A stretch of 50,252 bases of DNA, taken from IMG/VR virus record IMGVR_UViG_3300017989_000157, positions 1 through 50,252 of that record; one strand, written 5' to 3'. The translations under genes and the position numbers were made by a program. Shown here piece by piece: positions 3,728 to 50,252 of this stretch (positions are counted from its first letter, which is position 1; each line of letters begins with the position of its first letter). The notes beneath the pieces are model-generated. The model searched no databases, was not told the DNA's origin, and was given only the letters and a program-made list of their open reading frames with translations. Source of the stretch: a virus.

Positions 3728-3731
3728 GACG

Positions 3732-4079: not shown

Positions 4080-4090
4080 GAGGATGGGAG

Positions 4091-5287: not shown

Positions 5288-5290
5288 CCT

Positions 5291-18589: not shown

Positions 18590-18608
18590 TGGAGGGATGG
18601 CAACCGTG

Positions 18609-18851
18609 ATGACCGAAGCCGAAATCCGCGAGCGGCTGGCCTTCAACGTCCGCCGGCTGCTGGCCTCGCGGGGCTGGAAGCAGGCCGATCTGGCCCGGGC
18701 CACCGAGGAGGCCGAGGGCCGCGTTTCCGGGCTCGTTCGCGGGACCGTCACGCCCCGGGCCGACTTCCTGGCCAAGGTGGCCGAGGCCTTCCGGGTCCCC
18801 GTCGACGAGCTGCTCCTGCCCGTCACTTCCGCCCAGCCTCAGAAAATCTGA
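18609..18851 (+). CDS. XRE-family helix-turn-helix regulator (lysogeny repressor candidate)
   Basis: An 80-residue protein that is little more than one HTH_3 domain: RERLAFNVRRLLASRGWKQ, ADLARATEEAEGRVSGLVRG (recognition helix), then FLAKVAEAFRVPVDELLLP. There is no C-terminal peptidase domain, so it is not a classical SOS-cleaved repressor. The Shine-Dalgarno GGAGGG (18591-18596) touches an ATG at 18597, so GTG 18606 or ATG 18609, at a better distance, are favoured. Matching operator-like palindromes sit in the promoters before and after the gene. It lies between attP and integrase, so control of lysogeny is the likely job. Confidence 0.85.
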   Translation: MTEAEIRERLAFNVRRLLASRGWKQADLARATEEAEGRVSGLVRGTVTPRADFLAKVAEAFRVPVDELLLPVTSAQPQKI

Positions 18852-18924: not shown

Positions 18925-19091
18925 GTTCTTGTTGGCCCAGGCTGGGCCTCCTGGACACGCCGCTACCGGGAACACCGGGCACGGAACGTCCAGTATGTAC
19001 GACCTCGCCGATAATGGAAGTCGGGCTTCCCCCCCCCGCAATGGCGCGCAGCGTAGTAGACTTAAGGTGGGGCGGGATTCCCAACTTCTCG

Positions 19092-19988
19092 ATGTCAGCC
19101 AAGTCTCCGAGCTTGTTCGAGTTTCTGGAGGACTATGCGCTGGCCCACCCGGGACTCGGCACGGACTCCCTGCGACAGATGGAAATGGCGGTTCGCCTCC
19201 TGGATCGGTGGGCCGAGCGGTCGCTCACTTTGTACGATCTCTCCGAGGGTCTCTTGAGGCGATTCATGGCCGACTACGGCGGGCGGGTCCGGCCTGCCAC
19301 GGTCAACGCCAAGCTCCGCTCGCTGCTGGCGATCTGGCGGTTTGCGTACGACGAGGAGCTGGTCGACCGGCCCCCCCGCCGGGTCCGGCGGATGCCGGAG
19401 GAGCTGGCCGAGCCGGAGGCCTGGACGCTGGACGAGATCGAGAGGATCGTGAGTGCGGCGCGGCGGCAGCCGGGCGAGGTGGCCGGTCTGGCGGCCGGCG
19501 CCTGGTGGGTCTCGCTGCTGCTGGTGGCCTACGTGACGGGGGAACGACGGGGGGCCCTAATGCGGGTCCAGTGCCAAAACTTGGACCTGGCCGGCCGCTC
19601 GATTCTCTTCGCCCGGACCAAGCAGCGGCGGGCCCGCCGCCGCGCCCTCTCCGACCAGGCCGTCGCGGCCTGCGCCGCGATCTGGTGCCCCCACCGCGAG
19701 CTGCTCTGGCCGTGGCCCTTTTCCCGCGAGTGGTTCGATGCCTCGCTGCGGAAGATCCTCCGCCGGGCCGAGGTCTCCTTCGGCCGCGGCCGGGGTGGCC
19801 TGATGCACAAGTTCCGCCGGACCTCCGGCTCGATGGTCGAGGCGGCCGGGGGCGACGGTTCGCGCCACCTCGGCAACTCGCGGCGGGTCTTCGAGCGACA
19901 CTACGCGGCCCCGCGGCTGGTTGGCGATCCCACCAGCCGGCACGTCCCGAAACTACGGGACGAAGAAGGGCCGATGTGGGTGATCTAA
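19092..19988 (+). CDS. int: Tyrosine recombinase / integrase
   Basis: With the start at ATG 19092 the protein has 298 residues. An N-terminal SAM-like core-binding domain (SLFEFLEDYALAHPG to about 95) is followed by the catalytic domain. Catalytic residues are visible: Arg 152 in TGER, a Lys in the following TKQRR turn, HKFR (His 239, Arg 242), His 259 in RHLG and the nucleophile Tyr 271 in ERHY. The start is uncertain: upstream ATGs at 19014 and 19041 are in frame, but none has a good Shine-Dalgarno, and 19092 fits the domain edge best. It should recombine the tRNA-like attP at about 18500-18550 with a host tRNA-Arg gene. No excisionase is recognised. Confidence 0.93.
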   Translation: MSAKSPSLFEFLEDYALAHPGLGTDSLRQMEMAVRLLDRWAERSLTLYDLSEGLLRRFMADYGGRVRPATVNAKLRSLLAIWRFAYDEELVDRPPRRVRRMPEELAEPEAWTLDEIERIVSAARRQPGEVAGLAAGAWWVSLLLVAYVTGERRGALMRVQCQNLDLAGRSILFARTKQRRARRRALSDQAVAACAAIWCPHRELLWPWPFSREWFDASLRKILRRAEVSFGRGRGGLMHKFRRTSGSMVEAAGGDGSRHLGNSRRVFERHYAAPRLVGDPTSRHVPKLRDEEGPMWVI

Positions 19989-24598: not shown

Positions 24599-24825
24599 AC
24601 AAACTTGAGGTAGCGAAGATATGTGCTGAGCGGTTGGGCTGCTGGGGGGCCGAGCTAACCAAGCAGCACGCCACACCCGTCTTACTACTCGGCGTCGGCC
24701 AGGACGACCAACGCGGAGAGTTGAACGTGCTGGTCTGCGAAGAAGTCGAGGACAAAGTGTTGAAACTTATGGTCACGGCGATCTTCCAGCAAGTCGTCTT
24801 GGATAAAGAGTGTCGTCTTGGATAA
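24595..24825 (+). CDS. Small protein with duplicated 3' end, unknown
   Basis: A 76-residue protein: MNKLEVAKICAERLGCWGAE, then LLLGVGQDDQRGELNVLV and KVLKLMVTAIFQQVVLDKE. The last residues CRLG come from the second copy of an 18-base repeat read in another frame, so the natural end has been altered by a tandem duplication. The base composition is less GC-rich than its neighbours, which hints at separate origin. Coupled to the gene before by ATGA. Confidence 0.6.
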   Translation: MNKLEVAKICAERLGCWGAELTKQHATPVLLLGVGQDDQRGELNVLVCEEVEDKVLKLMVTAIFQQVVLDKECRLG

Positions 24826-24829
24826 AGAG
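24793..24829 (+). repeat. Tandem duplication, 18-base unit with 19-base period
   Basis: GTCGTCTTGGATAAAGAG occurs at 24793-24810 and 24812-24829, identical. It spans the stop of one gene and the leader of the next, and shifts the frame at the end of the first. Confidence 0.95.
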
Positions 24830-26386: not shown

Positions 26387-26704
26387 ATGCCCCGGCGTAA
26401 ACCGATCCAAGCCGGCGACGCGGTCTACGTGTTTCTTGCCGGCCGCTACCGGAGGGCTCGCGTCCTGATGCACATGCGGGGGCGGGGGACGTGCCGCCTT
26501 CAGCTGGCCGGCGGGCAGCGACTCACCGTCGACGCTCGGGAGGCCAAGGCCGACGCGGTCGTCAAGCAGGAGGTCCAGCAGATCTACCGTGCCCTGGAGC
26601 AAGCCCTGGGCCGGCCGCCGACCGCCGCTGAACTGGCCGTCTACTGTGGGGTGGGAGCAATGGACTGGCTCAGAAACGGGAGGAGACGCGGTGTCCAGCG
26701 GTGA
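26387..26704 (+). CDS. Small basic protein, unknown
   Basis: A 105-residue protein. Its N-terminal half looks like a small barrel (DAVYVFLAGRYRRARVLMHM, TCRLQLAGGQRLTVDA). The C-terminal half is helical and basic (QIYRALEQALGRPPTAAELA, YCGVGAMDWLRNGRRRG), close to a HTH. ATG 26387 is chosen because GGAGGG (26374-26379) lies seven bases upstream; ATG 26372 is in frame but has none. It precedes the replication gene and could be a regulator. Confidence 0.6.
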   Translation: MPRRKPIQAGDAVYVFLAGRYRRARVLMHMRGRGTCRLQLAGGQRLTVDAREAKADAVVKQEVQQIYRALEQALGRPPTAAELAVYCGVGAMDWLRNGRRRGVQR

Positions 26705-26739
26705 TTACGTGGGGGTCTCGTAGGTACGGAGGAGCCCGG

Positions 26740-27558
26740 ATGGCCCGGATACGCTCGATCAAGCCCGAATTCTGGACCTCGGAACAAGTCGCCGAATGCT
26801 CGCCGACCGCTCGACTACTGTTCGTCGGGCTGTGGAATTTCTGCGACGACCAGGGAGTGCACCCGGCGAGTACCAAGCAGCTCAAGATGGAGGTCTTTCC
26901 GGGGGATTCGTTCACCCTTCAGGAGATCGCCGACTGGATTACCGAGCTGCGGTGTGCCGGCCTGGTCGCCCAGTACCAGTGTTCGCAAGGCCTTTACTGG
27001 TGGGCAGTTACGGGCTGGCATCACCAGAAGATCGACAAGCCGACGAACAAGTACCCCCCTCCCCAGGCGGACGATGATGCGCCGACTGTTCGGCGAGCGG
27101 TTGGAGAGCGTTCGGGGATCGCTCGCCCTGGAGAGGAGAGGAGAGGAGAGGAGTCTACCGGAGGGGAGAGGAAGGGAGGGGAAGGTTGCTCCGAGCGTTC
27201 GAAGACGAACGGCTCGAAGCCGGCGCCCCCCCCCGATCCGCCGGACCCGCCGGAGGACGGCTTCCTGATCTTCCCCTGCTGCGGCCGCGACTCCCCGACC
27301 TGGACGCTGACTCAGGCCAAGGTCGCCGAGTACCGCGAGAGCTTCCCGGGGATCGACGTGGAGGCTGAGTGCCGCAAGGCCCTCCAGTGGTGCCGGGACA
27401 ACAAGCTCAAGCGCAAGACGGCCCGGGGGATGCCGGCCTTCCTGTCGCGGTGGCTATCGAAGGAGCAAGACCGCTGCAGCCGCGGTCCGCCGTCGCAAGA
27501 GCAGCAGCGGGCGTTTGTGGACGTCTCCAAGTTCAAGCCGCCGGAGCCTGGAAAGTGA
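26740..27558 (+). CDS. Phage replisome-organizer-type replication protein
   Basis: A 272-residue protein starting MARIRSIKPEFWTSEQVAEC, the standard opening of a phage replication protein family with a winged-helix N-terminal domain (ARLLFVGLWNFCDDQGVHPA, EVFPGDSFTLQEIADWITEL, WWAVTGWHHQKIDKP). A low-complexity linker follows (GEERRGEESTGGERKGGEG, then PPPDPPDPPEDG) and a C-terminal domain of about 70 residues. The family binds an origin and recruits the host helicase. The purine-rich repeat coding for the linker could be an origin inside the gene, as in lambda O. The Shine-Dalgarno is GGAGGAG. The stop overlaps the next start (GTGA). Confidence 0.8.
   Translation: MARIRSIKPEFWTSEQVAECSPTARLLFVGLWNFCDDQGVHPASTKQLKMEVFPGDSFTLQEIADWITELRCAGLVAQYQCSQGLYWWAVTGWHHQKIDKPTNKYPPPQADDDAPTVRRAVGERSGIARPGEERRGEESTGGERKGGEGCSERSKTNGSKPAPPPDPPDPPEDGFLIFPCCGRDSPTWTLTQAKVAEYRESFPGIDVEAECRKALQWCRDNKLKRKTARGMPAFLSRWLSKEQDRCSRGPPSQEQQRAFVDVSKFKPPEPGK
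27130..27153 (+). repeat. GGAGA microsatellite in the replication gene
   Basis: GGAGA repeated almost five times, all purine on the plus strand, followed by further purine-rich sequence to about 27185. It encodes the Gly/Glu/Arg linker and is a candidate origin element. Confidence 0.9.
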
Positions 27559-35911: not shown

Positions 35912-36262
35912 TCACGCGGCCCAGGATCGGGCACACTCGATTGAACAGAAACGGTCGCTAAGGCCCCTCGGCCGGAATGTCTGGCCACACCACCGGCAGC
36001 TCCGACCGCGGCTCTGGAGGTGGGCCAACAGCCGGGCCTCGGGGCCGCGGCGGTCCTCCTGGATCACCAGGCCGCGGTTGCAGTGATCGCGGATCATATC
36101 CCAGAACTGAGCCACGATCGCCCGACCGGGGACGGGCCACCAGCCGCAGAGAGACTCCCGCCACATGGCGTCAGGCTCGGCGCGGGCCGCCTTGATGATG
36201 TCGACGTAGCGGGCTAGCGGGATCGGCCGGCCCTCGTAGGTTCGAATGACAAGCTTGTTCAC
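35912..36262 (-). CDS. Small protein with C-terminal zinc finger
   Basis: A 116-residue protein starting at GTG 36262 with AGGAGA upstream (minus strand). Helical N-terminal part (LARYVDIIKAARAEPDAMWR, IVAQFWDMIRDHCNRGLVI). The end, SCRWCGQTFRPRGLSDRFC then SIECARSW, is a treble-clef-like CxxC..CxxxC finger. GTGA overlap with the stop of the gene before it. Probably DNA-binding. Confidence 0.7.
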   Translation of the reverse strand: MNKLVIRTYEGRPIPLARYVDIIKAARAEPDAMWRESLCGWWPVPGRAIVAQFWDMIRDHCNRGLVIQEDRRGPEARLLAHLQSRGRSCRWCGQTFRPRGLSDRFCSIECARSWAA

Positions 36263-36729
36263 GATTGGGTCTCCTGAGAAACGGGGTAGAAGATGGCGGC
36301 CGCGTCGGTGGGCTCGCCCAACTGGTTGTAGACCTCGGCGAGTCGGGCGGGCTGATGGTTGCACTTGGTGCGGAAGAGGTGGACCTGGTCGCCCGCCTGC
36401 ATCCACTGGACCAGCCGCTTGCGGACGGCCCGCTCGGCGGCCGCGAGGTTGGGCTGGGTGTCGGTATGGCTGTCCCAATAACGAACGGTATAGGCCGTGT
36501 TGGGGGCGAGGCCCCTGGCCACGTCGGCCAGGTGGTAGATGTCCTCGGGCTTTCGCCAGCAGCCGCAGCGGTGTTTGGGGTTGTCCGACTCCAGCCGGAC
36601 CCGGGTGTCGGACCGCTTGGCCACCCGTAGATGCCGGACCCGCCAGCGGCCGGGCACGGGGTAGCAGTCGCCGCAGCGGGTGTACACCTCGTCGCCGGTG
36701 CGGAGTGGATAGCCATCTGCGGTTTTCAT
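36259..36729 (-). CDS. First gene of leftward operon, unknown Cys-containing protein
   Basis: A 156-residue protein: MKTADGYPLRTGDEVYTRCG, DCYPVPGRWRVRHLRVAKRS, then CGCWRKPEDIYHLADVARG. The N-terminal half looks like a small beta-barrel with two Cys pairs; the C-terminal half is helical (AAERAVRKRLVQWMQAGDQV). GGAG lies 10-13 bases before the ATG on the minus strand. It directly follows the palindrome-rich control region. Family not recognised. Confidence 0.65.
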   Translation of the reverse strand: MKTADGYPLRTGDEVYTRCGDCYPVPGRWRVRHLRVAKRSDTRVRLESDNPKHRCGCWRKPEDIYHLADVARGLAPNTAYTVRYWDSHTDTQPNLAAAERAVRKRLVQWMQAGDQVHLFRTKCNHQPARLAEVYNQLGEPTDAAAIFYPVSQETQS

Positions 36730-36776
36730 GGGTCGGTCTCCAGGTTGGGGTTGAGGGGTCGTCGCCAGCAGATTAT

Positions 36777-36871
36777 TGGGCCCATTAGTCAAGGGTTTTA
36801 GTGGGCCCAGAAAAAGAAGCGACAGTTTGTCGTAACCCGTTGGCGTGTAAGGGCGACAGTGTTTTGTCGCC
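36777..36871. promoter_or_regulatory. Cluster of palindromes in the divergent control region
   Basis: Two copies of TGGGCCCA (36777-36784, 36802-36809; a third, TGGGCCCG, at 36967-36974) and two of CGACA-n-TGTCG: 36820-36832 with a three-base loop, and a longer GGCGACA-GTGTTT-TGTCGCC at 36852-36871. They lie between operons that diverge. This is what paired operator sites look like. The rest of 36730-36987 holds no gene. Confidence 0.65.
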
Positions 36872-36975
36872 AAGACCAGATTGGTAGCGAATGAAGGTGG
36901 ACACTTTGGTCGATGATAATAGCCAGGTGGCGGGTCTGGATTGGGGGGGTGGCTGGGGCAATTTGTTGGGCCCGG

Positions 36976-36981
36976 TATAAT
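36976..36981 (+). promoter_or_regulatory. Perfect TATAAT box of a leaderless transcript
   Basis: TATAAT ends seven bases before the A of the ATG at 36988, so transcription should start at or next to the start codon. There is no Shine-Dalgarno. No good -35 is seen at the right distance, so an activator may be needed. Confidence 0.6.
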
Positions 36982-36987
36982 GCAGGC

Positions 36988-37476
36988 ATGGGAAAGAAAC
37001 GCGGGCGGCCGGCAACTGGCCCCAACCCAACCCGGAAGGTGACAGGCGTCCCCGACGTCGAGTGGACGCGATGGGAAGCGGCCTGGCGCGTGGCGGGCTA
37101 CCGGAGTTTCTCGTCGTGGGCCAAGGCGATCCTGGGCCGTGCCGCCAGGCGGGCCATCCGCCGGGGCAGAGCAGCCCGGGCACGTGCCGAGCCACCCGCA
37201 GCCGCCAGCCAGCCGCCAACGCCCGAGCCCGAGCGGCCGCCGGCCGACAAGCGGGACCCCCTGGCCCAGGTGCCAGGTGAACCGCCGGCCGAGGACCAGG
37301 CGGCGCTCCAGGAACCCGCGGTGCAGCCGACGCCGGAGCCGGCCCAGGAGCGGCCGACCTGCGAGACGTGCGCCGCCTTCATCCCGAAGCCCGAGAGCAC
37401 CATCGGCATTTGCCAGCAGCGGGGAGAGATCGTCAGGGCCGCCAGCCGGGAGCCGTGCTGGAGGGGGGAGGAATGA
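36988..37476 (+). CDS. AT-hook/ribbon-helix-helix-like DNA-binding protein (leaderless)
   Basis: A 162-residue protein. It starts with an AT-hook-like MGKKRGRPATG. Residues about 16-55 (RKVTGVPDVEWTRWEAAWRV, SFSSWAKAILGRAARR) have the strand-helix-helix pattern of a ribbon-helix-helix domain. A Pro/Glu-rich linker (about 65-125) leads to a Cys-bearing end (CETCAAFIPKP, GICQQRG, REPCW) that may bind zinc. The TATAAT box lies seven bases before the ATG and no Shine-Dalgarno exists, so the mRNA is probably leaderless, as for lambda cI. An array of eight 11-bp direct repeats starts six bases after its stop and is a natural binding-site candidate. Regulator or partition adaptor are the main options. 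Confidence 0.65.
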   Translation: MGKKRGRPATGPNPTRKVTGVPDVEWTRWEAAWRVAGYRSFSSWAKAILGRAARRAIRRGRAARARAEPPAAASQPPTPEPERPPADKRDPLAQVPGEPPAEDQAALQEPAVQPTPEPAQERPTCETCAAFIPKPESTIGICQQRGEIVRAASREPCWRGEE

Positions 37477-37482
37477 ACGTTT

Positions 37483-37570
37483 GAAGTAGGCGGGAAGTAG
37501 GCGGGAAGTAGGCGGGAAGTAGGCGGGAAGTAGGCGGGAAGTAGAGGGGAAGTAGAGGGGAAGTAGCGTG
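37483..37570 (+). repeat. Eight 11-bp direct repeats (iterons)
   Basis: GAAGTAGGCGG five times, GAAGTAGAGGG twice, then a last GAAGTAGCGTG, starts exactly every 11 bases (37483, 37494 ... 37560). The period is one helical turn, so bound proteins would line up on one DNA face. The last unit contains the GTG start of the next gene. Confidence 0.95.
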
Positions 37571-37795
37571 GTCCCCAGGTGCAGCACATGCCGGTACTGG
37601 GCGAAGCGGGCCGACGGCGCGACCGGCGATTGCCGACGCCGCTGTCCAGTCTTCCGCGTCGAGGGCTTCGGCATCGAGGAGCCCGTCGAGCCGGCACACC
37701 CAGTCACGCCTGTCGATCACTGGTGTGGGGAGTGGCAGCCCAGCGAGGCCGCGGTCGCCAAGGCGGTTGGGGTGCCCAAGATCGGAGGAGGGTGA
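37568..37795 (+). CDS. Small Cys-rich protein, unknown
   Basis: A 75-residue protein starting at GTG 37568, inside the last iteron. Cysteines in VPRCSTCRYW, GDCRRRCPVF and DHWCGEWQPSE follow a pattern seen in short phage zinc proteins. The purine-rich iterons serve as Shine-Dalgarno-like sequence, so translation and repeat occupancy could affect each other. Function unknown. Confidence 0.65.
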   Translation: MVPRCSTCRYWAKRADGATGDCRRRCPVFRVEGFGIEEPVEPAHPVTPVDHWCGEWQPSEAAVAKAVGVPKIGGG

Positions 37796-38205
37796 TGCGT
37801 CCACGCTGCACGGAAAACAGTTTTCCGTGTTGGGGTGAGGTGGGGTTAGATCGAGGAGCCCGACGGCGGGCTCCCGCGCGCGAGGCCGCCGCGGACAAAC
37901 GCTGTCCGTCCGCGGACAAACGCTGTCCGCACGCGGACAAACGCTGTCCGCGAATCCCCCAGCGGCGGGGCGTGGTGACGGGTGTGGCGACGAGCGTCCC
38001 CTCGTTGACACGCCGGCCGCCAAGCTGGGCGAGCTGGGCAGCCAGCCGGCCAAGGCGAAGCGGAGCGGCGGCGGTCGGCGGGGGCCCCATCGAAGCGGAA
38101 TCCGAACCGCCCCCCCCCGGCAGCGTGCCGGGGGCCCCAACACCTACGCGCCTCCCCTCGATACTCTATTTTTCGCGTAACCCGTTTCCCCGCAACGCCT
38201 TCTAG
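37795..38205 (+). CDS. Doubtful ORF with triple ADKRCP repeat
   Basis: An open frame of 136 codons from ATG 37795, preceded by a good GGAGG and overlapping the previous stop by one base. It would contain AADKRCPSADKRCPHADKRCP, shown here as three heptads. The rest is Arg/Pro/Ser-rich and codon use is unlike the neighbouring genes. A stretch near 38010-38180 looks more coding-like in another frame without a start codon. It may be a decayed gene or noncoding control DNA. Confidence 0.25.
   Translation: MRPRCTENSFPCWGEVGLDRGARRRAPAREAAADKRCPSADKRCPHADKRCPRIPQRRGVVTGVATSVPSLTRRPPSWASWAASRPRRSGAAAVGGGPIEAESEPPPPGSVPGAPTPTRLPSILYFSRNPFPRNAF
37809..37829. repeat. Perfect 9-bp inverted repeat
   Basis: CACGGAAAA-CAG-TTTTCCGTG, AT-rich at its centre within GC-rich DNA. 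No U-tract follows, so an operator or origin element is more likely than a terminator. Confidence 0.85.
37891..37950 (+). repeat. Three 21-bp repeats, each with an inner palindrome
   Basis: GCGGACAAACGCTGTCCG occurs identically at 37891-37908, 37912-37929 and 37933-37950. Each unit has CGGACA..TGTCCG arms around five bases. Two helical turns per unit. Either protein-binding sites or, since 21 is a codon multiple, a peptide repeat. Confidence 0.95.
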
Positions 38206-39967: not shown

Positions 39968-40501
39968 TTGCTGGCCAAGACCACGATCCGCCGACAGGCC
40001 GAGCAGTATGGGCTGTTGGACCACTTCACCACCGAGCGCGAGCGGCTCAAGGCGGAGGGCAAGTCGGTACCGGAGGCCTGGCGGCTGGCCTACGAGCGAA
40101 TCGTCAAGCCGGCCGTCGAGCACGGGCAGCGGGAGCCGGAACCGGAGGGAGGTCATTCGCTGCCGCCGCGACCCACGATCGGCGACGAGCGACTGACGAT
40201 CGTCGAAGAGATGCGATGGGGCCTGGAGACGATCGGCCACTACCGGGCGACCCGCGAATGGCCCAAGAAGTGCCCCTGTAAGGGGGCCTGGTTTTGGTTC
40301 GACCTCGGGCTAGCCAAGCCCGACTACCTCGGCAACTTGGTGCTCAAGACGGCAATGCGAGGTGAGGAAGACGAGGGGGAGGACTGGCTTTGTCATGGTA
40401 AGCAGCAGCAAGACGAGCTTGAGCGATTCATCGCCGAAGTCCAAGCCGCTCTACCCGCAGGTCCCCAAGGACCTCCTGGGAAACCTGCGGTGGCGGCGTG
40501 A
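39968..40501 (+). CDS. Putative terminase small subunit
   Basis: A 177-residue protein from TTG 39968 (AGGGAG upstream). The N-terminal half has a HTH-like segment (IRRQAEQYGLLDHFTTERER, KSVPEAWRLAYERIV). The C-terminal half has MRWGLETIGHYRATREWPKK, a Cys pair (CPCKGAWFWFDLG) and a helical end. The call rests on position directly before the large terminase, which overlaps it by 107 bases. A small DNA-recognition role in packaging is expected. Confidence 0.55.
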   Translation: MLAKTTIRRQAEQYGLLDHFTTERERLKAEGKSVPEAWRLAYERIVKPAVEHGQREPEPEGGHSLPPRPTIGDERLTIVEEMRWGLETIGHYRATREWPKKCPCKGAWFWFDLGLAKPDYLGNLVLKTAMRGEEDEGEDWLCHGKQQQDELERFIAEVQAALPAGPQGPPGKPAVAA

Positions 40502-42266
40502 ACTGATCCGGCGGGTGATGGACGATCCGCAGCGGGCCTCGCTGCTGCGGTGGGCCTGCGCTTCCGATCCCCTCTTCTGGATCAACTCCTTCGTCTGGAC
40601 CTACAACCCTAAGTCGCAAGGCCGTAAGAAGTTACCGTTTGTCACTTGGCCGTTTCAGGACAAGGCAATCCGCGCCCTGTTGGACTCGGTCGGCAACCAC
40701 GATGTGCTGATCGAAAAGTCGCGGGACATGGGGGCGAGCTGGATCTGCCTGATGGCGATCCTTTGGCAGTGGCTCTACCACCCGCTGACCAACTTCCTGC
40801 TCTCCAGCCGGAACGACGATTACGTGGACAAGTCGGACGAGCCGAAAAGCCTCTTCTGGAAACTGGACTTCGCCCTGAAGAACCTCCCGGTGTGGCTCCT
40901 GCCGGCCGGCTGGCACTGGCAGAGACACCGCAAGGTCAAACGGCTGGTGAACCCCGAAAACGGCGCCGTCATTGTCGGAGAGGCGACCACCGAAGACCTC
41001 GGCCGCGGAGGCCGCTTTACGGCGATCCTGCTCGACGAGTTTGCCGCCTGCCAGGTCGGGATGGGCATTCTGCGGAGTACCGGGGACGCCACCGATAGCC
41101 GCTGGTTCAACTCGACGCCCAAGGGGACCGGCAACGCCCACTACCGGATGGTCCAGCGGGCGCGGGAAAAACCGGAGGCGATTCGCACGCTGCGATTCCA
41201 CTGGCCGGAGCACCCACAGAAAGGCGCGGGGCTGTACACGAGCGACAAGCTCGGGGCCCTGGAGATCCGCGACAAAAGCTACGCGTTTCCGCCGGATTAC
41301 CCCTTCCTTCTGGACGGCAAGCTCCGCTCCCCCTGGTACGACCGCCGCTGTGCCCGGGCGGCGACCGCCGCCGAAGTGGCCCAAGAGGAAGACATCGACT
41401 ACCTGGGCTCCGGCTATGGGTTCTTCGAGGCCGACAGGATCGAGGCCTTGATCCAGTTGGCCTGCACGCCACCCCGCCAGGTCGGTTTCCTCGACCTCGA
41501 CGACGACACCCTCCAGCCCAAGGCCTTCCACGAGCACCCCAAGGGGCCGCTAGCCCTGTGGCTGGTCCTCGCCGCCGACGGCATCATCCCGATCGACCGC
41601 CCCTATGTGGCGGGTGTCGACGCCGCCGCCGGCAGCGGCGCCAGCAACAGCGTGATTTCGATCTGGGACGGGCGGACCGGCGAGAAAGTCGCCGCCTACG
41701 TCAATCCGCGAATCTCGCCGGAGGCCCTGGCGCGGGAGGCCGTGGGACTCTGCCACTGGTTCAACGACGCCTTCATTGTCTGGGAGGTCGGCGGCTCGGG
41801 CACCCAGTTCGGCACGGCCCTGATGGCCCTCGGCTACGGCCACTACTACTGCCGCGACAGCGAGGCGACCGAGCAGCCCAAGCGTGGCAACCGGCCCGGC
41901 TGGAGCCCGACGCCGGACAACAAGCTGCAACTACTGGGCGCCTACCGCCAGGCCTTGCACGAGGGGACCGTCTGCAACCGGGACGAGGCCGCCCTGCGGG
42001 AGTGTCTCCAGTACGTCTACACGCCGGCCAACACGGTCGAGCACCAGAAAACCGTCGACTGCGAGGACCCCAGCGGGGCCCGCAAGCAGCACGGGGACCG
42101 GGTAATCGCTGATGCCCTGGGCGTGAAGCTGCTCGGGGAGCGCGTCTACCAGCCGTCTGAACTGGTCTTCGAGGCCTCCCCCCTGTCCTACGCCGGCCGC
42201 CAGCAGCTCCGCAGGGAGCGAGCCGAACGCCGGCGTCAACCGCAATCGGAGTTCGTGTTTAACTGA
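40395..42266 (+). CDS. terL: Terminase large subunit
   Basis: A 623-residue packaging ATPase/nuclease. A Walker-A-like loop EKSRDMGASW (107-116) and Walker B with catalytic Glu, AILLDEFA (Asp 214, Glu 215), are followed by the coupling region WFNSTPKGTGNAHY. The RNase-H-like nuclease domain starts at VAGVDAAAGSGASNSVISIW and ends with HGDRVIADALG, giving the metal-binding aspartates. It drives DNA into the prohead and cuts concatemers. The start ATG 40395 lies inside the small-subunit candidate gene, with GGGGGAGG 11 bases upstream. The stop shares one base with the portal start. Confidence 0.93.
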   Translation: MVSSSKTSLSDSSPKSKPLYPQVPKDLLGNLRWRRELIRRVMDDPQRASLLRWACASDPLFWINSFVWTYNPKSQGRKKLPFVTWPFQDKAIRALLDSVGNHDVLIEKSRDMGASWICLMAILWQWLYHPLTNFLLSSRNDDYVDKSDEPKSLFWKLDFALKNLPVWLLPAGWHWQRHRKVKRLVNPENGAVIVGEATTEDLGRGGRFTAILLDEFAACQVGMGILRSTGDATDSRWFNSTPKGTGNAHYRMVQRAREKPEAIRTLRFHWPEHPQKGAGLYTSDKLGALEIRDKSYAFPPDYPFLLDGKLRSPWYDRRCARAATAAEVAQEEDIDYLGSGYGFFEADRIEALIQLACTPPRQVGFLDLDDDTLQPKAFHEHPKGPLALWLVLAADGIIPIDRPYVAGVDAAAGSGASNSVISIWDGRTGEKVAAYVNPRISPEALAREAVGLCHWFNDAFIVWEVGGSGTQFGTALMALGYGHYYCRDSEATEQPKRGNRPGWSPTPDNKLQLLGAYRQALHEGTVCNRDEAALRECLQYVYTPANTVEHQKTVDCEDPSGARKQHGDRVIADALGVKLLGERVYQPSELVFEASPLSYAGRQQLRRERAERRRQPQSEFVFN

Positions 42267-44020
42267 TGGACCCCCACGACCGCGACGACCGGGCTCGCTT
42301 GATGCGGGCCGTCGAGCACAGCCGCCGGAAACTGGAGCCCTTCCGGGTGAAGCGCACGGCCCTGCTGCGCCGCTACGCGGGCTCCGAATACTCGGACGAC
42401 GGCGCACTCGAGCCGACGCCGGTCAACCAAATCGCCCAAGCCGTGGGAATCTACGTCCAGCAACTCGCCGGCGGCGAGCCCCAAGCCCTGGTTTTGACGC
42501 ACAACCCCACCCTCCAGGTGGCCGCGCATGAGCAGACCCTCGCCCTGAACAAGGTAGCCAAGACGATGGGCCTGCGGCGGGTCCTTCAGCGGCTTATCAA
42601 CAGTGCCCTGTTTGGCCTGGGGATCGCCCGCGTGGGGCTGGTGCCGATCGGCAGTCGCCCGACCAAGGAGCTGTTTCCTCACCTGGATGAAGACGGTGTG
42701 AGCAGGGTCGGCCAACTCGCCATCGACATCATTTCGCTCGACTCGTGGGTCCACGACATGTCGGCCGACGTCCCCGAGCAGGTCTGGTTTTGTGGCCACC
42801 AATATTGGGTCCTGCGCAGCGAGCTGGGAGACTTCCTGCCTGAGCTGCCGGCCGACGAGATCCCCGAACAAGAACGCCGCCCCCGGGACGAGGCCGGCCA
42901 GTCGCGGGCCACCACGATCAGCCGCGGCGAGACCGACTACGACGAGGCCGACTACGAACCCCGGTTCTGGCTCTGGGATCTCTGGCTGCCGCGGGAACAG
43001 GTCCAGATCACCACCCAGGTCGACGGAACCGGGGAATACGCGCACGTCCGGCCCTGGACCGGCCGCCGAAAGGGACCCTACATCTACCTCTACTACGACG
43101 AGATCCCGGACCAACTGATGCCCAAGGCGGTTTGCGCCGACCTGGCCGAGTTGCACGACAGCCAGAATAGCGCGTTTCGCAAGTTGATCGCCCAGACGAA
43201 GCGGGAGAAGGTCGTGACCGGCTACCGGCCGGGGCACGAGGACGACGCCAAGCGGATCAAGGAGGCCTCGGACGGCTCGATGGTCGCGATGCGCGACCCG
43301 CAGGCAGTCCAGGAGTTCCAATTCGGGGGGCCGACGCAAGAGGTCCTGGCAATGTTCCTGCAATCGCGGGACCTGGCCAGCATCCTGGGCGGCAATCTCG
43401 ATTCACTCGGTGGGCTCGGACCGCAGGCCCAGACGGCCACCCAGGACCAGCTCCTCCACGGCTCGGCGGGGCAGAAGATCAGCAAGATGCAGATCGACAC
43501 GACCTGCTGCACCGTGGAGCTGCTGGAGGCGATCCGCTTCCACCTCTGGCACGACCAGCATAGGCCGATCGACCTGGAGAAGGAGGCGCCCTTACTCCCC
43601 ATGGGCCTGCCGGCCCAGTGGCCGCCGCGGACCGGCCTGGAGGGGGCCTTCGACGACTTCGAGATGCAGATCGAGCCCTTCTCGTTGGTCTACCGCAGCC
43701 CCGAGCAGCGGGTCGAGACGCTGCTGATGCTCTACGAGCGGGTCATCGTGCCGGGCGTGCAATCGGGCCTGATCCAGCAGGCGCCCAACACCGAAAAGCT
43801 CCTGGAGATCTGCGCCCGCTACCTCAATCAGCCGGAACTGCGGGAAATCCTGGACTTCACGACGGCCGACGACCTGCCGCGGCCCAGCCACGGCGCCACC
43901 CAGGCCCCGCATACCACGCGGGAGACGATCCGTCGCGGGGCGCCGGGCATGACACCCCAGGGTGCGGGGCGGGAGATGATCCAGCAACTCATGAGCGGCG
44001 GAAGGGGGCCCCAGCGATGA
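42266..44020 (+). CDS. Portal protein
   Basis: A 584-residue protein in the podovirus-type portal size range. N-terminal LEPFRVKRTALLRRYAGSEY and a wing domain (LINSALFGLGIARVGLVPIG, QVWFCGHQYWVLRSELGDFL) are followed by a helical stem/crown region with QTATQDQLLHGSAGQKISKM, usual for portals, and a disordered tail. Twelve copies would form the DNA entry pore at one capsid vertex. It is placed between terminase and scaffold, the standard order. The stop is coupled to the next gene (ATGA). Confidence 0.88.
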   Translation: MDPHDRDDRARLMRAVEHSRRKLEPFRVKRTALLRRYAGSEYSDDGALEPTPVNQIAQAVGIYVQQLAGGEPQALVLTHNPTLQVAAHEQTLALNKVAKTMGLRRVLQRLINSALFGLGIARVGLVPIGSRPTKELFPHLDEDGVSRVGQLAIDIISLDSWVHDMSADVPEQVWFCGHQYWVLRSELGDFLPELPADEIPEQERRPRDEAGQSRATTISRGETDYDEADYEPRFWLWDLWLPREQVQITTQVDGTGEYAHVRPWTGRRKGPYIYLYYDEIPDQLMPKAVCADLAELHDSQNSAFRKLIAQTKREKVVTGYRPGHEDDAKRIKEASDGSMVAMRDPQAVQEFQFGGPTQEVLAMFLQSRDLASILGGNLDSLGGLGPQAQTATQDQLLHGSAGQKISKMQIDTTCCTVELLEAIRFHLWHDQHRPIDLEKEAPLLPMGLPAQWPPRTGLEGAFDDFEMQIEPFSLVYRSPEQRVETLLMLYERVIVPGVQSGLIQQAPNTEKLLEICARYLNQPELREILDFTTADDLPRPSHGATQAPHTTRETIRRGAPGMTPQGAGREMIQQLMSGGRGPQR

Positions 44021-44295
44021 GCAAACGGAAGAGACGGCCGGACCTGCGGGCGAAAATCCCCTTCCCGCATTTGCTCCGCGACCCGATTTGCCGCAGCGAC
44101 AGCCTTGGCGTTCATCCGAGGCAGATCCCCGAGGCTAAGGCCTACGCTGCGGAACTGGGCTGCGAGGTCGATTACGAACCGGACGGCACGGCCGTGATGA
44201 AGCGCAGCGAGCGGGGCAAGTACCTCGACCGCCTGGCCCGGGCCAAGCCAAACCAACCTCGAATAGTCGACTACAACCAAGGTTTCACGATCTGA
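44017..44295 (+). CDS. Small head-region protein, unknown
   Basis: A 92-residue basic protein: MSKRKRRPDLRAKIPFPHLL, SLGVHPRQIPEAKAYAAELG, CEVDYEPDGTAVMKRSERGK. The middle is a short alpha/beta unit. Small proteins of this type sit between portal and scaffold in related phages. It is followed by a hairpin. Function unknown. Confidence 0.7.
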   Translation: MSKRKRRPDLRAKIPFPHLLRDPICRSDSLGVHPRQIPEAKAYAAELGCEVDYEPDGTAVMKRSERGKYLDRLARAKPNQPRIVDYNQGFTI

Positions 44296-44391
44296 GGCAA
44301 ACAACCTAACGGAGGGCCGCGCTTCGGCGTGGCCACCGCAAGGGCAAACCGGCCAGGAGGGCCGGGACGGCCCGAAACGTCGCCCCTTTCG

Positions 44392-44429
44392 GGAGGGTCG
44401 CGCAGAGTGTGCGGCCCTCCCCTTCTTTC
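44392..44429 (+). terminator. Hairpin before the scaffold gene (attenuator-like)
   Basis: GGAGGGTCGC (44392-44401) pairs with GCGGCCCTCC (44411-44420) in a ten-pair stem with one wobble, followed by CCTTCTTTC. It could lower read-through or mark an RNA end ahead of the capsid genes. Confidence 0.6.
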
Positions 44430-44442
44430 AAGGAGCGCGACG

Positions 44443-45522
44443 ATGGCCGAAGAAGCCGATGGGGTTGCCCCCCTGCACGAGGTCGACGACGGACAGACCC
44501 CCACCGCCGAGGAGCAGGCGGCCGGCGACGCCAAAATCCTGGAGGCCTGCAAAGGCAAGTTCGAGGAAGCTGGCCTCTCCTACGAGCCGGAGCCGGGCGA
44601 CGGGGGCGACGGCCGAGCAAAGCGTACACCGACTCCCGCCACGGGCGAGCGCAAGCCCCGCGGCGAAGGCGGACCGAGACAGCCGGAGGGCAAGCCCGAG
44701 GGGCTCGACCCGGCGACCTTGGCCCGCGCCGAGCTGGCCGGGATCAACCCATCCCAGGTCGAGCGCCTCCACCAGGCCGGTCTGCTGGAGGAGATCCTGG
44801 CGGCAGCCGACCGCCGCGCGATCGCGGCTTTCGAGCGGCCCCAGGGTGGTACAGCGGCGGGTGCCCCCGCGGCGGGCCAGGCGACTGCGGCCCAGCCGGC
44901 AGGCGGGCAGCCGCCAGCCCCGACCGGAGAGAACCAGCGTGGTGACCAGGCGCCGCCGCGCCAAGCCGAGATGCCTCCACCCCTGGCGGACGCCGAGGAG
45001 GAGTACCCCCCGGAGATCGTTGCCCGGGACAAGTGGCATCAGGAGCAAATCGCGGCGCTGCGGGCCGAGCTGGAGGGCATGCAAACGGTCGCCAATCGTT
45101 TCGCCCGCCAGCAGCAGACCCGCTTCGACTCGTGGCTGGACAAGCGTTTCGAGGAGTTGGACAGCGAGTTCTACGGCAAGGGCCGGATCGAGGATCTCCC
45201 GCCGGATTCCCCGGAAGTGATCCGGCGGCGGAAGGTGGCCACGGGCTACATCCAGCTCTGCGGGGCCTTCCAGCTCGACCCGGCCGACTGCGACGACTCC
45301 TACCTCCAGCGCGCCGAGACGGTCACCTTTCCCGACCAGGCAGCCAAGGCGCACGAGCGCCAGATGCAGCGGCGGCTCCGCGACTCCGAAGGTCGCTTCG
45401 TCTCCCCGCGGCGCCCCTCCTCGGGGCGTCCGCCCGCCAGAAAGACCCCACCCGTCGACGACGGGGGGGAGGACTTCCCGGCCGAAGCGCTCCAGAAGAT
45501 CGAGGACATCGTCCGCCGCTAA
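44443..45522 (+). CDS. Capsid scaffolding protein
   Basis: A 359-residue acidic protein with AAGGAG seven bases before ATG 44443. Long disordered Pro/Gly/Glu/Gln-rich N-terminal half; the C-terminal half is a coiled coil (HQEQIAALRAELEGMQTVAN, RFARQQQTRFDSWLDKRFEE) and a short helical end. Composition, length and place directly before the major capsid gene are those of a scaffold that guides prohead assembly and leaves later. No protease is visible next to it. Confidence 0.8.
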   Translation: MAEEADGVAPLHEVDDGQTPTAEEQAAGDAKILEACKGKFEEAGLSYEPEPGDGGDGRAKRTPTPATGERKPRGEGGPRQPEGKPEGLDPATLARAELAGINPSQVERLHQAGLLEEILAAADRRAIAAFERPQGGTAAGAPAAGQATAAQPAGGQPPAPTGENQRGDQAPPRQAEMPPPLADAEEEYPPEIVARDKWHQEQIAALRAELEGMQTVANRFARQQQTRFDSWLDKRFEELDSEFYGKGRIEDLPPDSPEVIRRRKVATGYIQLCGAFQLDPADCDDSYLQRAETVTFPDQAAKAHERQMQRRLRDSEGRFVSPRRPSSGRPPARKTPPVDDGGEDFPAEALQKIEDIVRR

Positions 45523-45555
45523 TCGCGCCCTGCGCGTTTATGAGGAGGACGCCCT

Positions 45556-46590
45556 ATGGGTCTCCAAGCGGAACAAATCGCGGACGTGGTGGAGGTGGTC
45601 AAGGACGTGGAGCGTCCCGGGACCTACACCCTGCTGACGACCGAATTGCAGAAGTACCCGGCCATGAAACAGATCATGGCCAGCAAGAAGCGCAGCGAGC
45701 GCGGCGGGGAGCAACTCAGCTTCACCGCCATGGTCGGCTCGAACGACTCGGCCCAGACGACCGCGTTGTTCGGGGAAATCGACATCACCCAAGCGGACCT
45801 GTTCAAAAAGGGGCGCGTGCCCTGGCGGCACGTCACCAACTTCTACCTCTTCGACGAGCGGGAGCCGGAGCTGAACAGCTCCCCCCGCGACCTGGCGGAC
45901 ATCGTCCGCGGCCGGCGAACCGACTGCATGGTCGGCCTGGCCAAGAAGTTCGAGATCTGGTTTTGGGAAACCCCGACCGGCGCCGAGGACGCCGACGACG
46001 CCCCGCCCTACGGCGTGCGCTACTGGATCCAGCGCGACAACACCGACACGGACGGGGCCTTCCAGGGCGGTAACCCGGCCGGTTTCGCGGCGGGCTGCGC
46101 CGGCCTGTCGAGCACGACCTACCCGAACTGGGCGAACTACAGCGTCGGGTACGAGGACGTCGGCGAGGACGACTTCGTCAAGCGATTGCGCAAGGCGGGC
46201 CAGTGGTGCGACTTCGAGAACCCGGTGGTGGTTCCGGGGGACAGGACGGCCAGCTACGGGTACTACACCAACTGGACCGTCTTCGACGCCTTGTCCGAAG
46301 TGGCCAAGTCCCGCAACGACAACCTCGGCTGGGACCTGGCCCTACAGGCCCCGATCAACAAGGGGGTGGCGATCCAGTACGTCCCCTACCTCAACGGAGA
46401 CTCGGAAAACCCGTTCTACGGGATCGACTGGGCCGTCTTCCGGCCGACCTTCCAGCGGGGCGAGTGGATGAACGAGACGACGGTCCCCCACCCCGGCAAA
46501 CAGCACCGGACGGTGGCCACGTTTGTGGACTGCTCGCTGAACTACGAGTGCCGCGATCGTCGCCGCCTGTTTGTTCTCTACGAGGTCTGA
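45556..46590 (+). CDS. Major capsid protein (HK97-like)
   Basis: A 344-residue protein directly after the scaffold, with GAGGAGG seven bases before ATG. An N-terminal helical arm (QAEQIADVVEVVKDVERPGT) leads into a core with RRTDCMVGLAKKFEIWFWET, YYTNWTVFDALSEVAKSRND and the C-terminal strand VATFVDCSLNYECRDRRRLF. Size, place and strand pattern fit the HK97 capsid fold. It is followed by two decoration-like genes. No proteolytic prodomain is evident. Confidence 0.85.
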   Translation: MGLQAEQIADVVEVVKDVERPGTYTLLTTELQKYPAMKQIMASKKRSERGGEQLSFTAMVGSNDSAQTTALFGEIDITQADLFKKGRVPWRHVTNFYLFDEREPELNSSPRDLADIVRGRRTDCMVGLAKKFEIWFWETPTGAEDADDAPPYGVRYWIQRDNTDTDGAFQGGNPAGFAAGCAGLSSTTYPNWANYSVGYEDVGEDDFVKRLRKAGQWCDFENPVVVPGDRTASYGYYTNWTVFDALSEVAKSRNDNLGWDLALQAPINKGVAIQYVPYLNGDSENPFYGIDWAVFRPTFQRGEWMNETTVPHPGKQHRTVATFVDCSLNYECRDRRRLFVLYEV

Positions 46591-46652
46591 GCCGACAGGG
46601 CGCCCATTCGCCGTTGTTCGTAAACACACTCCTCACCAGGAGGATCACGATC

Positions 46653-47495
46653 ATGACTCTTGCTGCACGACTCCGCGGCCAACTCGGCTCGGAGCAAACC
46701 AACCGAGGCCCCAGCCGCGGAATCTGGGGCCGAGCACCGGTGCTGTCCGTCCTCGAAGGGACGATCGACGGCTATTACTGGTTCGACGACTTCCTCGATT
46801 ACGTCTCCACCGCGACGACCGTCCGCAACCGCAGCGGCGTCCCGGTGTTCGAGGGGGATTGCACGGTGACCGGCGGCGCGCTGACCGGCGGCGTGCTCCA
46901 GTTGTTCGGGACCACCGACAACGAGGAGGCGGCCCTCCAGGTGGGCGGCGGCGCCTCGGCGCCGTTTGTCATCCCGGCCGACTCGGCGGACGGGCACACC
47001 CTCTGGTTCGAGTGCCGGGTGAAGAAGTCGATCATCACCGCCGATAAGGCGGGGTTCTACGTCGGCTTCGCGAGCCAAGGGGCCGGCGTGGCCGACTTCA
47101 TCGCCGACGCCGGAAACGATTTCGCCGACGTGGACCTCCTCGGGTTCTGGAACCTGGAGGGGGAGGCGAACATCGACGCGATCTGCCAGAAGACGTCCGC
47201 CGCCTTCGACACCGTGATCGACGAGATGGAGGTGTTGGAGGCGGACACCTGGACCAAGCTGGGGCTGATCTACGACCCCAAGGCCGACGACGAAAAGAAG
47301 ATCACCTTCTTCGTCAACGGCATCCCCCAGACGACCTACGTCGGGGAGGACTCCGGGGACGCGACGGTCTACCTGGGCGACACGAGCAACTTCCCCGGCG
47401 GGGAGGAGATGTCGCTGCTGATCGCGATGAAGATGGCCGCGGCCGACGACGTGACCGTCTCGCTGGACTGGTGGAGGTGCCTCCAGTTGGCCTGA
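46653..47495 (+). CDS. Lectin-like (ConA-type) virion decoration protein A
   Basis: A 280-residue protein with AGGAGG nine bases before ATG. From residue about 40 (YYWFDDFLDYVS) it shows a jelly-roll layout: HTLWFECRVKKSIITADKAG, FYVGFASQG, WTKLGLIYDPKADDEKKITF and VTVSLDWWRCLQL. The same ordered blocks recur in the C-terminal half of the gene at 48785, so the two are paralogues. Laminin-G/ConA-like folds on phage capsids bind glycans or stabilise the shell. It is the first gene after the capsid protein. Confidence 0.65.
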   Translation: MTLAARLRGQLGSEQTNRGPSRGIWGRAPVLSVLEGTIDGYYWFDDFLDYVSTATTVRNRSGVPVFEGDCTVTGGALTGGVLQLFGTTDNEEAALQVGGGASAPFVIPADSADGHTLWFECRVKKSIITADKAGFYVGFASQGAGVADFIADAGNDFADVDLLGFWNLEGEANIDAICQKTSAAFDTVIDEMEVLEADTWTKLGLIYDPKADDEKKITFFVNGIPQTTYVGEDSGDATVYLGDTSNFPGGEEMSLLIAMKMAAADDVTVSLDWWRCLQLA

Positions 47496-47507
47496 CCTGG
47501 AATTGCC

Positions 47508-47539
47508 CCCCCCGCCCGCCTTCACCGGCGGGCGGGGGG
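47508..47539 (+). terminator. Thirteen-base-pair GC hairpin
   Basis: CCCCCCGCCCGCC and GGCGGGCGGGGGG pair perfectly around TTCACC. Very stable but without a U-tract, so it may slow polymerase or protect the capsid mRNA end. Confidence 0.7.
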
Positions 47540-47562
47540 CGTCCTGTACAGGAGCACCCCCG

Positions 47563-48345
47563 ATGCCCGACACCCCCGCGCTGCTGACCTTTACGGAGTA
47601 CCTCGTCGAGTCGGCCGATCAGGCCGGCTGGGGCCGGGACAGCGACAAGTGGGACGACGACGAGACGGCCCGGCTGGGCCGGGCGATCAACCTCGCCTAT
47701 CAGCAGCTCCTCTTCCCGCCGATCCTCCCCGGGGAGACGACCGCCCACCGCTGGACCTTCCTCCAACCGGTGACCACGCTGGAGACCGTCAACGGCACCT
47801 GGGAGTACGACCTGCCCGCGATCTTCGGGACGCTGATCGGTGACCTGACCTACGCCACCGACGACGGCGTGCCCCACGCGATCAAGCTCACCAACGAGGA
47901 GCGGATCCGCAAGCTGCGCAGCGACAACGACGCGGACGGCCGGCCGAACTACGGGGCCGTGCGCCCGGCGGACACGACGATGGCCGCGCAGCAGACGATG
48001 GAGCTGCTGCTCTACCCGACCCCCAATGACGCCTACACCCTGAGCTACGCCTTCGACGTCCTGGTGGTCGACCTCTCCGACGCGAACCCCTACCCGCTGG
48101 GCGGCCAGCCGCACAACCTGACGCTCTTGCAGAGCTGCCGCGACCTGGTCGACGTGCTGATCAACGACGGGGTCAGCAACGGGCGCGAACACGCCCGGTT
48201 TCTCGAGCGCCTGGCCGCCTCGGTGGAGTACGACCGCCGCAACGCCCCGGCCGCGCTGGGCTACAACGGCGACGGCGAGCGGCGGATCGTGGTCCGCCAC
48301 GGCACCGACTTTAGCTGCTCGATCGCCACACCCCTTCCGCTCTAG
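47563..48345 (+). CDS. Head-tail connector-like protein
   Basis: A 260-residue protein: FTEYLVESADQAGWGRDSDK, ARLGRAINLAYQQLLFPPIL, WEYDLPAIFGTLIGDLTYAT, MELLLYPTPNDAYTLSYAFD, and near the end LTLLQSCRDLVDVLINDGVS. It resembles the adaptor (Gp11-type) proteins of podoviruses that sit under the portal, and is usually paired with the propeller-type nozzle found here at 2222. CAGGAG precedes the ATG. The role is inferred. Confidence 0.65.
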   Translation: MPDTPALLTFTEYLVESADQAGWGRDSDKWDDDETARLGRAINLAYQQLLFPPILPGETTAHRWTFLQPVTTLETVNGTWEYDLPAIFGTLIGDLTYATDDGVPHAIKLTNEERIRKLRSDNDADGRPNYGAVRPADTTMAAQQTMELLLYPTPNDAYTLSYAFDVLVVDLSDANPYPLGGQPHNLTLLQSCRDLVDVLINDGVSNGREHARFLERLAASVEYDRRNAPAALGYNGDGERRIVVRHGTDFSCSIATPLPL

Positions 48346-48355
48346 GAGCAAACCA

Positions 48356-48703
48356 ATGAAAGGTGTCCCCTTTGAAGTGCGAGAGGCGCTGGTCAAGTGG
48401 GCCACCCACGCGCCCGCAGCCAACACCGACGCCGTCTGCACGCTGGCGGCCGAGGCGGGCACCCGGCACGCCTTGAAAAAGGTCTGGTTCAGCTACGACG
48501 CCGACCCGGCCGGCTCGATCACGATCGTGGCCACGGTCAAGGGGGTCGAAACGACCTTCAAATTGGACGTGACGGTCAAGGGGGTCGACCGAATCGACTT
48601 CTCTGAACTGGCGATGGTGGGCGACGCGAACACGGCGATCACCATCACGCTGGCTGCCGGCGGCCAGGGGGTCACCGGCAAGCTGGTGGCGATGTACCGA
48701 TAA
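48356..48703 (+). CDS. Small beta-rich virion protein
   Basis: A 115-residue protein of strands and short loops: TLAAEAGTRHALKKVWFSYD, ADPAGSITIVATVKGVETTF, KLDVTVKGVDRIDFSELAMV, TITLAAGGQGVTGKLVAMYR. The sequence reads like a small jelly-roll or fibre-tip module, as in minor tail or decoration proteins. AGGAG precedes the ATG. Placement between connector and lectin-like protein fits a virion part. Confidence 0.7.
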   Translation: MKGVPFEVREALVKWATHAPAANTDAVCTLAAEAGTRHALKKVWFSYDADPAGSITIVATVKGVETTFKLDVTVKGVDRIDFSELAMVGDANTAITITLAAGGQGVTGKLVAMYR

Positions 48704-48784
48704 CGACGACCGCGGCGGCCGGGCCGGACAGCGGCGGCCGGGCCGCGCGTGACCAACTCTCCCGCTGTCAAGGAGGAGCTGACA

Positions 48785-50014
48785 ATGGCTTCCCCCCACA
48801 CGCTGCAGCGCTACTGGCGCGAGGCCCCCTGGCGGATCAACGACCTGGGCGACGGGGTCAAGGTGCCCCACAGCAAGGTCGGCCTGTACGAGATGACGGT
48901 CGCCGCGGCGACCGCCGAAACGGCGACCCTGCCGCGTCCCAGCCGCCGGGGCCTGCTGCTGCTGCTGGTCGCCACCAGCGTCGGTGGCGGCGGCCAGCGG
49001 ACGATCACGGTCACCGGCGGCTACAACGTCGCCGGCAACACCTCCCTGGTGTTCGCCACCCAGGGCGGCTGGGCGATGCTCTGGTCGGTGGAGATCAACG
49101 GCTCCTTCCAGTGGGTGCTGATCCAGCACGAGGGCGTCACGGGCCCGACCATCGACGTGGGCGCGATCGACGTGGACACGGTTACCGTGGACACGGCGGT
49201 CAACCTGGCCGACGACGTCTACGCCCTGTTCGGCACCGGCTCGGACGTCAAGCTCCAGTGGAACGGCACGTACCTGGAAGCCGGCCCGGCGAGTGGATTC
49301 TGGGCCGGGGCCCCCAGCCCCGCGGACCCGCAGTACCACGTCCACGCCCACGAGTTCTTCGACGACTTCCAGGTCGCCCCCCTGGACGCCAACCTGAAAT
49401 GGCACGAAGAGGACGACGGCGGCACGGGCACCAACGCCATCACGGATGCAGCGAACGGCGTCGGCACGGTCGTTACGGCGGCCGCCGACAACGACTACCA
49501 CGCCATTTCATCGCTGGCGGAAATCTTCAAGTTCGCCACCGGCAAGAAGCTCTGGTTCGAGGCCCGCTTCAAGCTGGCCGAGGCGGCTACCAACGAGTCG
49601 GCCTGGTGGTTCGGTCTGACCGACACCCTGACGACGGGCGGTCTCCAGGCCGACGCCGCCGGCCCGCTGGCCAGCTACGACGGGTTTCTGATCTGGAAAG
49701 ACGAGGGAACGCTCAAGGTCGACAGCGAGCTTTCCGAGGCCGGCGACCAGGACACCGACGCCGAGGAGGCCGATTTCGTCTCCAACAAGTGGTCCCGCGT
49801 GGGGTTCTACTTCGATGGCGTGGACACGATCACCCCCTACTACGACATGAACGAGGCGGGGGCGTGGACAGCCGGCACGGACAAGAAGTTCGCCGGCAAC
49901 CTCGCGCTGGCCGACATGGACGAGATGCACGTGGTCGCCGGTGTCAAGGCGGGGCCCTCGGGCAACGCCGAGACGCTCCAGATCGACTACATCCAGGTGG
50001 TGCAGTTGCGATGA
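48785..50014 (+). CDS. Lectin-like (ConA-type) virion protein B
   Basis: A 409-residue protein with AAGGAG six bases before ATG. An N-terminal beta domain (MTVAAATAETATLPRPSRRG, RTITVTGGYNVAGNTSLVFA, WAMLWSVEINGSFQWVLIQH) is followed by a linker of TVDTAVNL type and, from about residue 195 (HEFFDDFQVAP), a jelly-roll half with KKLWFEARFKLAEAATNESA, WWFGLTDTL, FLIWKDEGTLKVDSEL and LQIDYIQVVQLR. This half parallels the protein at 46653. A carbohydrate-binding spike or decoration is likely. The stop overlaps the next start (ATGA). Confidence 0.65.
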   Translation: MASPHTLQRYWREAPWRINDLGDGVKVPHSKVGLYEMTVAAATAETATLPRPSRRGLLLLLVATSVGGGGQRTITVTGGYNVAGNTSLVFATQGGWAMLWSVEINGSFQWVLIQHEGVTGPTIDVGAIDVDTVTVDTAVNLADDVYALFGTGSDVKLQWNGTYLEAGPASGFWAGAPSPADPQYHVHAHEFFDDFQVAPLDANLKWHEEDDGGTGTNAITDAANGVGTVVTAAADNDYHAISSLAEIFKFATGKKLWFEARFKLAEAATNESAWWFGLTDTLTTGGLQADAAGPLASYDGFLIWKDEGTLKVDSELSEAGDQDTDAEEADFVSNKWSRVGFYFDGVDTITPYYDMNEAGAWTAGTDKKFAGNLALADMDEMHVVAGVKAGPSGNAETLQIDYIQVVQLR

Positions 50015-50252
50015 CCGAGCCCCTGTTGACGATTCTGCTGTTTGTCGACGTGGAGAAGGACCCGGAGCTGACCGAGTTCTTCTTCACGGGGCTCCGGCTC
50101 TGGAATCGCCGGGCCATGCAGCGGACGCAGGTGATCGTGATTACCCAGAAGGGCCGCGACCCGCACACCCACCGGGTCGCGGCCCGCCAACCCTTCCCCG
50201 TCTCCGTGGTCCACGCCCTGCACGAGGAGGTCGGGGGCTACCCGCTCTGGGA
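50011..50252 (+). CDS. Glycosyltransferase-like protein, 5' part (3' part at 2-919)
   Basis: This start (ATG 50011, overlapping the previous stop) opens the gene that leaves the window at its right end. The first 40 residues, LLTILLFVDVEKDPELTEFF and on, are followed by the sequence repeated at position 2 onward. Joined, the protein has 345 residues. Annotating only 2-919 would miss the true N-terminus. See the 3' part for function. Confidence 0.8.
   Translation, partial: MTEPLLTILLFVDVEKDPELTEFFFTGLRLWNRRAMQRTQVIVITQKGRDPHTHRVAARQPFPVSVVHALHEEVGGYPLW
50130..50252. repeat. Terminal direct repeat, right copy (circle overlap)
   Basis: Identical to bases 1-123. The repeat is part of the junction-spanning gene. 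Confidence 0.97.

Follow-up and report, generated by a model that had tools for sequence, protein, structure and literature searches.

Does a gene for a DNA-binding protein that is followed at once by a tandem array of short repeats mark a partition locus in a phage, or does the array belong to the gene that comes next? A striking layout of one protein plus iterons can mimic a plasmid centromere even when the array is the leader of the neighboring gene, and such a layout is found in the DNA described here. This DNA (hereafter, the window) is an IMG/VR virus record, complete at 50,252 bp and classified as linear, with a GC content of 67.6%, and was analyzed over its whole length. The initial annotation, made from the letters of the DNA, proposed a one-gene partition or copy-control locus that would point to a phage-plasmid phase or, failing this, a phage-specific master switch. 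The explanation that we favor, at slightly less than an even chance, is that of a leaderless, probably autoregulated phage RHH regulator lying next to an array that represents the duplicated leader of the following gene (Table 1).

Table 1. Features of the RHH gene, its control region, the repeat array, and the duplicated leaders
Feature	Position	Strand	Remarks
19-bp tandem duplication	24793-24829		Before ATG 24832; two copies
Divergent intergenic control region	36730-36987	.	Separates the RHH gene from the leftward gene 36259-36729 (-)
TTGGGCCC, immediately upstream of the -10 box	36966-36973	.	Possible operator, inferred
TATAAT (-10 box)	36976-36981	+	Sequence; first base 12 bp before ATG 36988
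Gene for the 162-aa protein	36988-37476	+	GRP hook with RHH domain at about aa 3-56; linker rich in Pro/Ala; Cys4 tail at about aa 123-160
Array of eight direct 11-bp repeats with the core GAAGTAG	37483-37570	+	Sequence
GAGG, Shine-Dalgarno-like, within unit 7	37555-37558	+	9 nt before GTG 37568
Next gene, 75-aa small Cys4 protein (CSTC...GDC...WCGEW)	37568-37795	+	Starts at the GTG that closes repeat unit 8
19-bp tandem duplication	48708-48745		Before GTG 48749; two copies, start 48749 uncertain

The -10 box of the 36988 gene is the sole TATAAT of the 50,252-bp record on both strands, where a first-order Markov model expects 0.25 + 0.28 copies (two strands), and the chance of a random TATAAT falling in such a slot of some gene is about 0.004. 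It is separated from the ATG (36988-36990) by six bases, GCAGGC; the perfect hexamer reported initially is thus confirmed, and its distance of seven bases has to be corrected. As had also been noticed, the Shine-Dalgarno sequence is missing: none of the tetramers GGAG, GAGG, AGGA, or AAGG occupies the usual slot before this ATG, and such a tetramer is present at 26 of the 39 ORF starts tested in the window. No sigma-70 -35 match was found upstream of the hexamer. In surveys, bacterial leaderless genes have been defined by a TANNNT motif about 12 bp before the start codon (PMC3160421), and the 36988 gene, with its -10 box at this distance and no Shine-Dalgarno sequence, has that exact geometry; most other genes of the same phage, in contrast, carry a Shine-Dalgarno sequence. 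Transcription from such a -10-only promoter would start at or next to the AUG, so that a leaderless message is probable. Starting from an in-frame ATG at 36913, the protein would gain 25 residues.

The 162-aa product would be a DNA-binding phage regulator of the RHH kind, carrying a GRP hook at the N-terminus and ending in a Cys4 tail. Taken alone, the protein matched no RHH Pfam model, and whole-protein searches returned no homologue in phage and plasmid records, in viral and GTDB contigs, or in 46 related viral records. In genomes from the same phylum as a Planctomycetota bin, a 65-aa protein shares 39% identity with it over the hook and RHH region, and further small GRP-hook proteins were reached via this relative, which as a lone query recovered no more family members at a strict cut-off. 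With the window protein left out, the family profile still gives that protein 31-35 bits, with 2,000 shuffles reaching at most 10.8, the homology being partly circular because the family had been gathered with the window protein as seed. The profile matches the NikA-like (8e-8) and TacA1 (2.5e-4) models, the DUF6290 and HicB models, and the solved TacA-type RHH antitoxins PDB 6ajm/6gto (2e-3). AlphaFold places helices at residues 23-36 and 41-59 with a pLDDT of about 87, and Foldseek structure searches gave no confident match. Of the beta strand followed by two helices by which an RHH domain is recognized, the AlphaFold model, that of a monomer, shows the two helices and not the strand; the family sequence match supports the assignment. 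An N-terminal RHH domain of NikA/TacA-like type with a GRP hook is strongly indicated, and the early description of an AT-hook/RHH-like protein is borne out by the relatives and the profile matches.

Small RHH proteins of the NikA/TacA (DUF1778) type resemble the 162-aa protein in their strand-helix-helix order, and the profile links extend to PF21983 and PF08681 as well as to the two structures. Unlike them, the 162-aa protein combines a GRP hook with a Cys4 tail, whose pattern is similar to the CxxC...GxC...WCGEW of the downstream 75-aa protein. The surroundings also differ from those of NikA and TacA, as neither a relaxase nor an oriT was seen here, and the neighboring genes, searched for the GNAT toxin gene that adjoins a TacA-type antitoxin, gave no GNAT match.

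In the divergent intergenic region, palindromes TGGGCCCA, related to the TTGGGCCC that abuts the -10 box, are found at 36777 and 36802, and both kinds are candidate operators. Position and the habits of the RHH family make autorepression the most likely role of the protein, which would act on the divergent control region via the TTGGGCCC/TGGGCCCA palindromes. Two dyads whose arms read GACA...TGTC (CGACAAACTGTCG and GGCGACAAAACACTGTCGCC, minus strand) also lie in this region, at 36819-36871; they resemble the 21-bp dyads found downstream of the array and differ from them in loop length.

The array was initially described as eight 11-bp repeats beginning six bases after the stop codon, and both statements hold, with the correction that the final triplet of unit 8 (37568-37570) already serves the next gene as its start codon. 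In register from 37483, the units are five copies of GAAGTAGGCGG, two of GAAGTAGAGGG, and one of GAAGTAGCGTG; the lag-11 match is 73 of 77 over the 77-bp span, compared with 38 or fewer elsewhere in the window. An in-frame TAG at 37553, inside the array, leaves GTG 37568 as the sole start codon available in frame, and the presence of this GTG in unit 8 and of the Shine-Dalgarno-like GAGG in unit 7 points to the array as the 5' leader of the 37568-37795 gene. As to its origin and role, we infer that the array would be a transcribed leader grown by tandem duplication around the ribosome-binding site of this gene, acting at most in cis on it, by tuning translation or by offering additional binding sites. 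Elsewhere in the window, two 19-bp tandem duplications, perfect or near-perfect and also intergenic, end 2-3 bp before ORF starts, and leader duplication may be a habit of this genome, with only two copies in each of these other cases and one uncertain start codon (Table 1). No Rfam match was obtained, and the array shows no folding as RNA nor as DNA of the other strand. Weak tblastn matches of the 75-aa protein are to cyanophage hypothetical proteins.

Beyond the 75-aa gene, three 21-bp units of exact period, each a perfect dyad CGGACAAACGCTGTCCG, occupy positions 37889-37951. Their neighborhood also contains a 21-bp palindrome, CACGGAAAACAGTTTTCCGTG (37809-37829), and hairpins (37855-37874, 38114-38134). 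The 21-bp dyad had no match in viral contigs. As RNA, the segment 37796-38140 folds far better than its shuffles (z = -4.2).

Eight units repeated at exactly 11 bp, all with the same 7-bp core, would fit an array of binding sites as well as a leader. The main rival to the leader is thus an operator cluster, possible and, in our estimate, rather unlikely, in which one RHH dimer would sit on each 11-bp unit along one helix face, and the block would silence the next gene or organize the terminase-proximal region, with no partition role. The adjoining RHH gene speaks for such a cluster, as do the period of one helical turn, the conservation of GAAGTAG in 8/8 units while positions 8-10 vary, the confinement of the core GGAAGTAG to the array within the window, and the scarcity of long 11-bp arrays in 2.2 Mb of viral loci, part of which had been fetched for carrying 11-bp arrays. 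However, GGAAGTAG is missing from the protein's own promoter (36730-36987), the distant RHH-bearing phages lack the array, and the five identical units resemble a recent duplication; core invariance is weak evidence here because there are few independent changes between units. Should the protein bind the array, the locus would offer a compact, testable case of an RHH regulator working via an array that overlaps a start codon. A scan of viral_contigs for the array gave no match with a strict pattern and four short three-copy arrays, in unrelated surroundings, with a looser one; a control pattern of the same composition gave nine matches in the same set, which means that such arrays are not enriched. 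Neither was the array found in 392 genomes from the phylum to which a Planctomycetota bin belongs. An 11-bp array in the locus L089 was rejected as a parallel, since it sits within coding sequence. The array is an unusual local feature.

A one-gene partition (centromere) locus of the R388 StbA-stbDR or ParR-parC type, which would imply a plasmid phase, is very improbable. Compared by arrangement, R388 and this locus have in common a single DNA-binding protein and an array of 11-bp period, the stbDRs being 9-bp repeats with 2-bp spacers, and StbA stabilizes its plasmid without its ATPase StbB (PMC3098194). ParR-parC and pSM19035 omega-parS likewise join an RHH protein to contiguous repeats, of which the pSM19035 centromere proteins require at least four (PMC9499535), and the window does encode a serine resolvase. 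However, known par and stb arrays sit at the promoter from which their own operon is read (PMC5016525, PMC3098194), and the known RHH or one-protein systems combine an array at their own promoter with a partition NTPase, StbA excepted (PMC5016525, PMC3098194, PMC9499535). The stbDRs lie on either side of the stbABC promoter, ahead of the gene, and ParR-parC and omega-parS use a partition NTPase, with arrays located at promoters of their own or at related ones, whereas here the array is downstream of the RHH gene, as the leader of the next one. No ParA, ParM, or TubZ was found when the 61 ORFs of the window were compared with Pfam and PHROGs, so the adjacent ParM or ParA NTPase of type II (ParMRC) and type Ib systems is missing, and the DNA of the region had no match to 72,556 plasmids. 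With no partition NTPase, and with the core missing from the promoter of the protein, the partition or copy-control reading is left unsupported. Nor is a phage-plasmid phase supported. The window encodes a tyrosine integrase (19014-19988) and has a separate cI-like gene (18561-18851), which indicate ordinary lysogeny by integration; their location together at 18.5-20 kb also weakens the master-switch reading.

There is a slim probability that the array, 2.8 kb upstream of the terminase, is a packaging (pac/cos) site or a replication-origin iteron site ahead of the terminase genes. In favor are this position and the adjacent, highly structured segment with three 21-bp dyads; against it, the replication-initiator gene is at 26701-27558, and the array overlaps a start codon.

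The initial annotation had suggested looking for the same protein-plus-array in related phages; at distant phage RHH genes, in the loci L053 and L079, no adjacent 11-bp array is present. In both loci the RHH genes were found with the A4 profile and lie upstream of the terminase. In L079, which has the structural module in common with the window, repeated AGGGGTGTAATACACCG palindromes lie in front of a tandem pair of RHH-like genes; in L053, which has only a toprim gene in common, the RHH gene (11995-12240) is located between toprim and terminase, and its consensus promoter reads TTGACA-17 bp-GATAGT-7 bp-ATG, with a TTGACATTGTCAA dyad over the -35. The leaderless-type promoter geometry, already recognized in the window, thus recurs at a distant phage RHH gene. 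A third match, in the record of L012, is at a contig edge. With RHH genes recurring ahead of the terminase in three very distant phages, and a leaderless-type promoter in one of these as well, this position of a small regulator would seem worth surveying. Such genes might even define a class of phage regulators, leaderless RHH-Cys4 proteins encoded immediately before the packaging genes of unrelated phages, the one described here coating an array that doubles as the ribosome-binding region of the next gene and so coupling occupancy to expression of the packaging-proximal operon, a proposal that we consider improbable.

The terminase, portal, and capsid proteins of the window have relatives at 27-44% identity. 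A link to a Planctomycetota host consists only of distant terminase matches and the small RHH family, which is insufficient to establish the host. The structural module (40362-50252) seems to exit at the right end of the record and to resume at the left end (1-6391); ORF 1526-3727 matches L079 downstream of the structural genes common to both, which suggests a circularly permuted genome. Within the replication-initiator ORF, purine-rich (GGAGA)n repeats at 27130-27185 are a possible origin inside the initiator gene, by analogy with lambda O. A 3,500-aa polyvalent protein encoded at 6378-16880 carries a Strawberry-notch-type helicase (AAA_34, Helicase_C_4) and an LPD38 domain. Adjoining the cI-like and tyrosine integrase genes, positions 17126-18406 encode a protein with an FGE-sulfatase domain, a fold that is frequent in variable display proteins.
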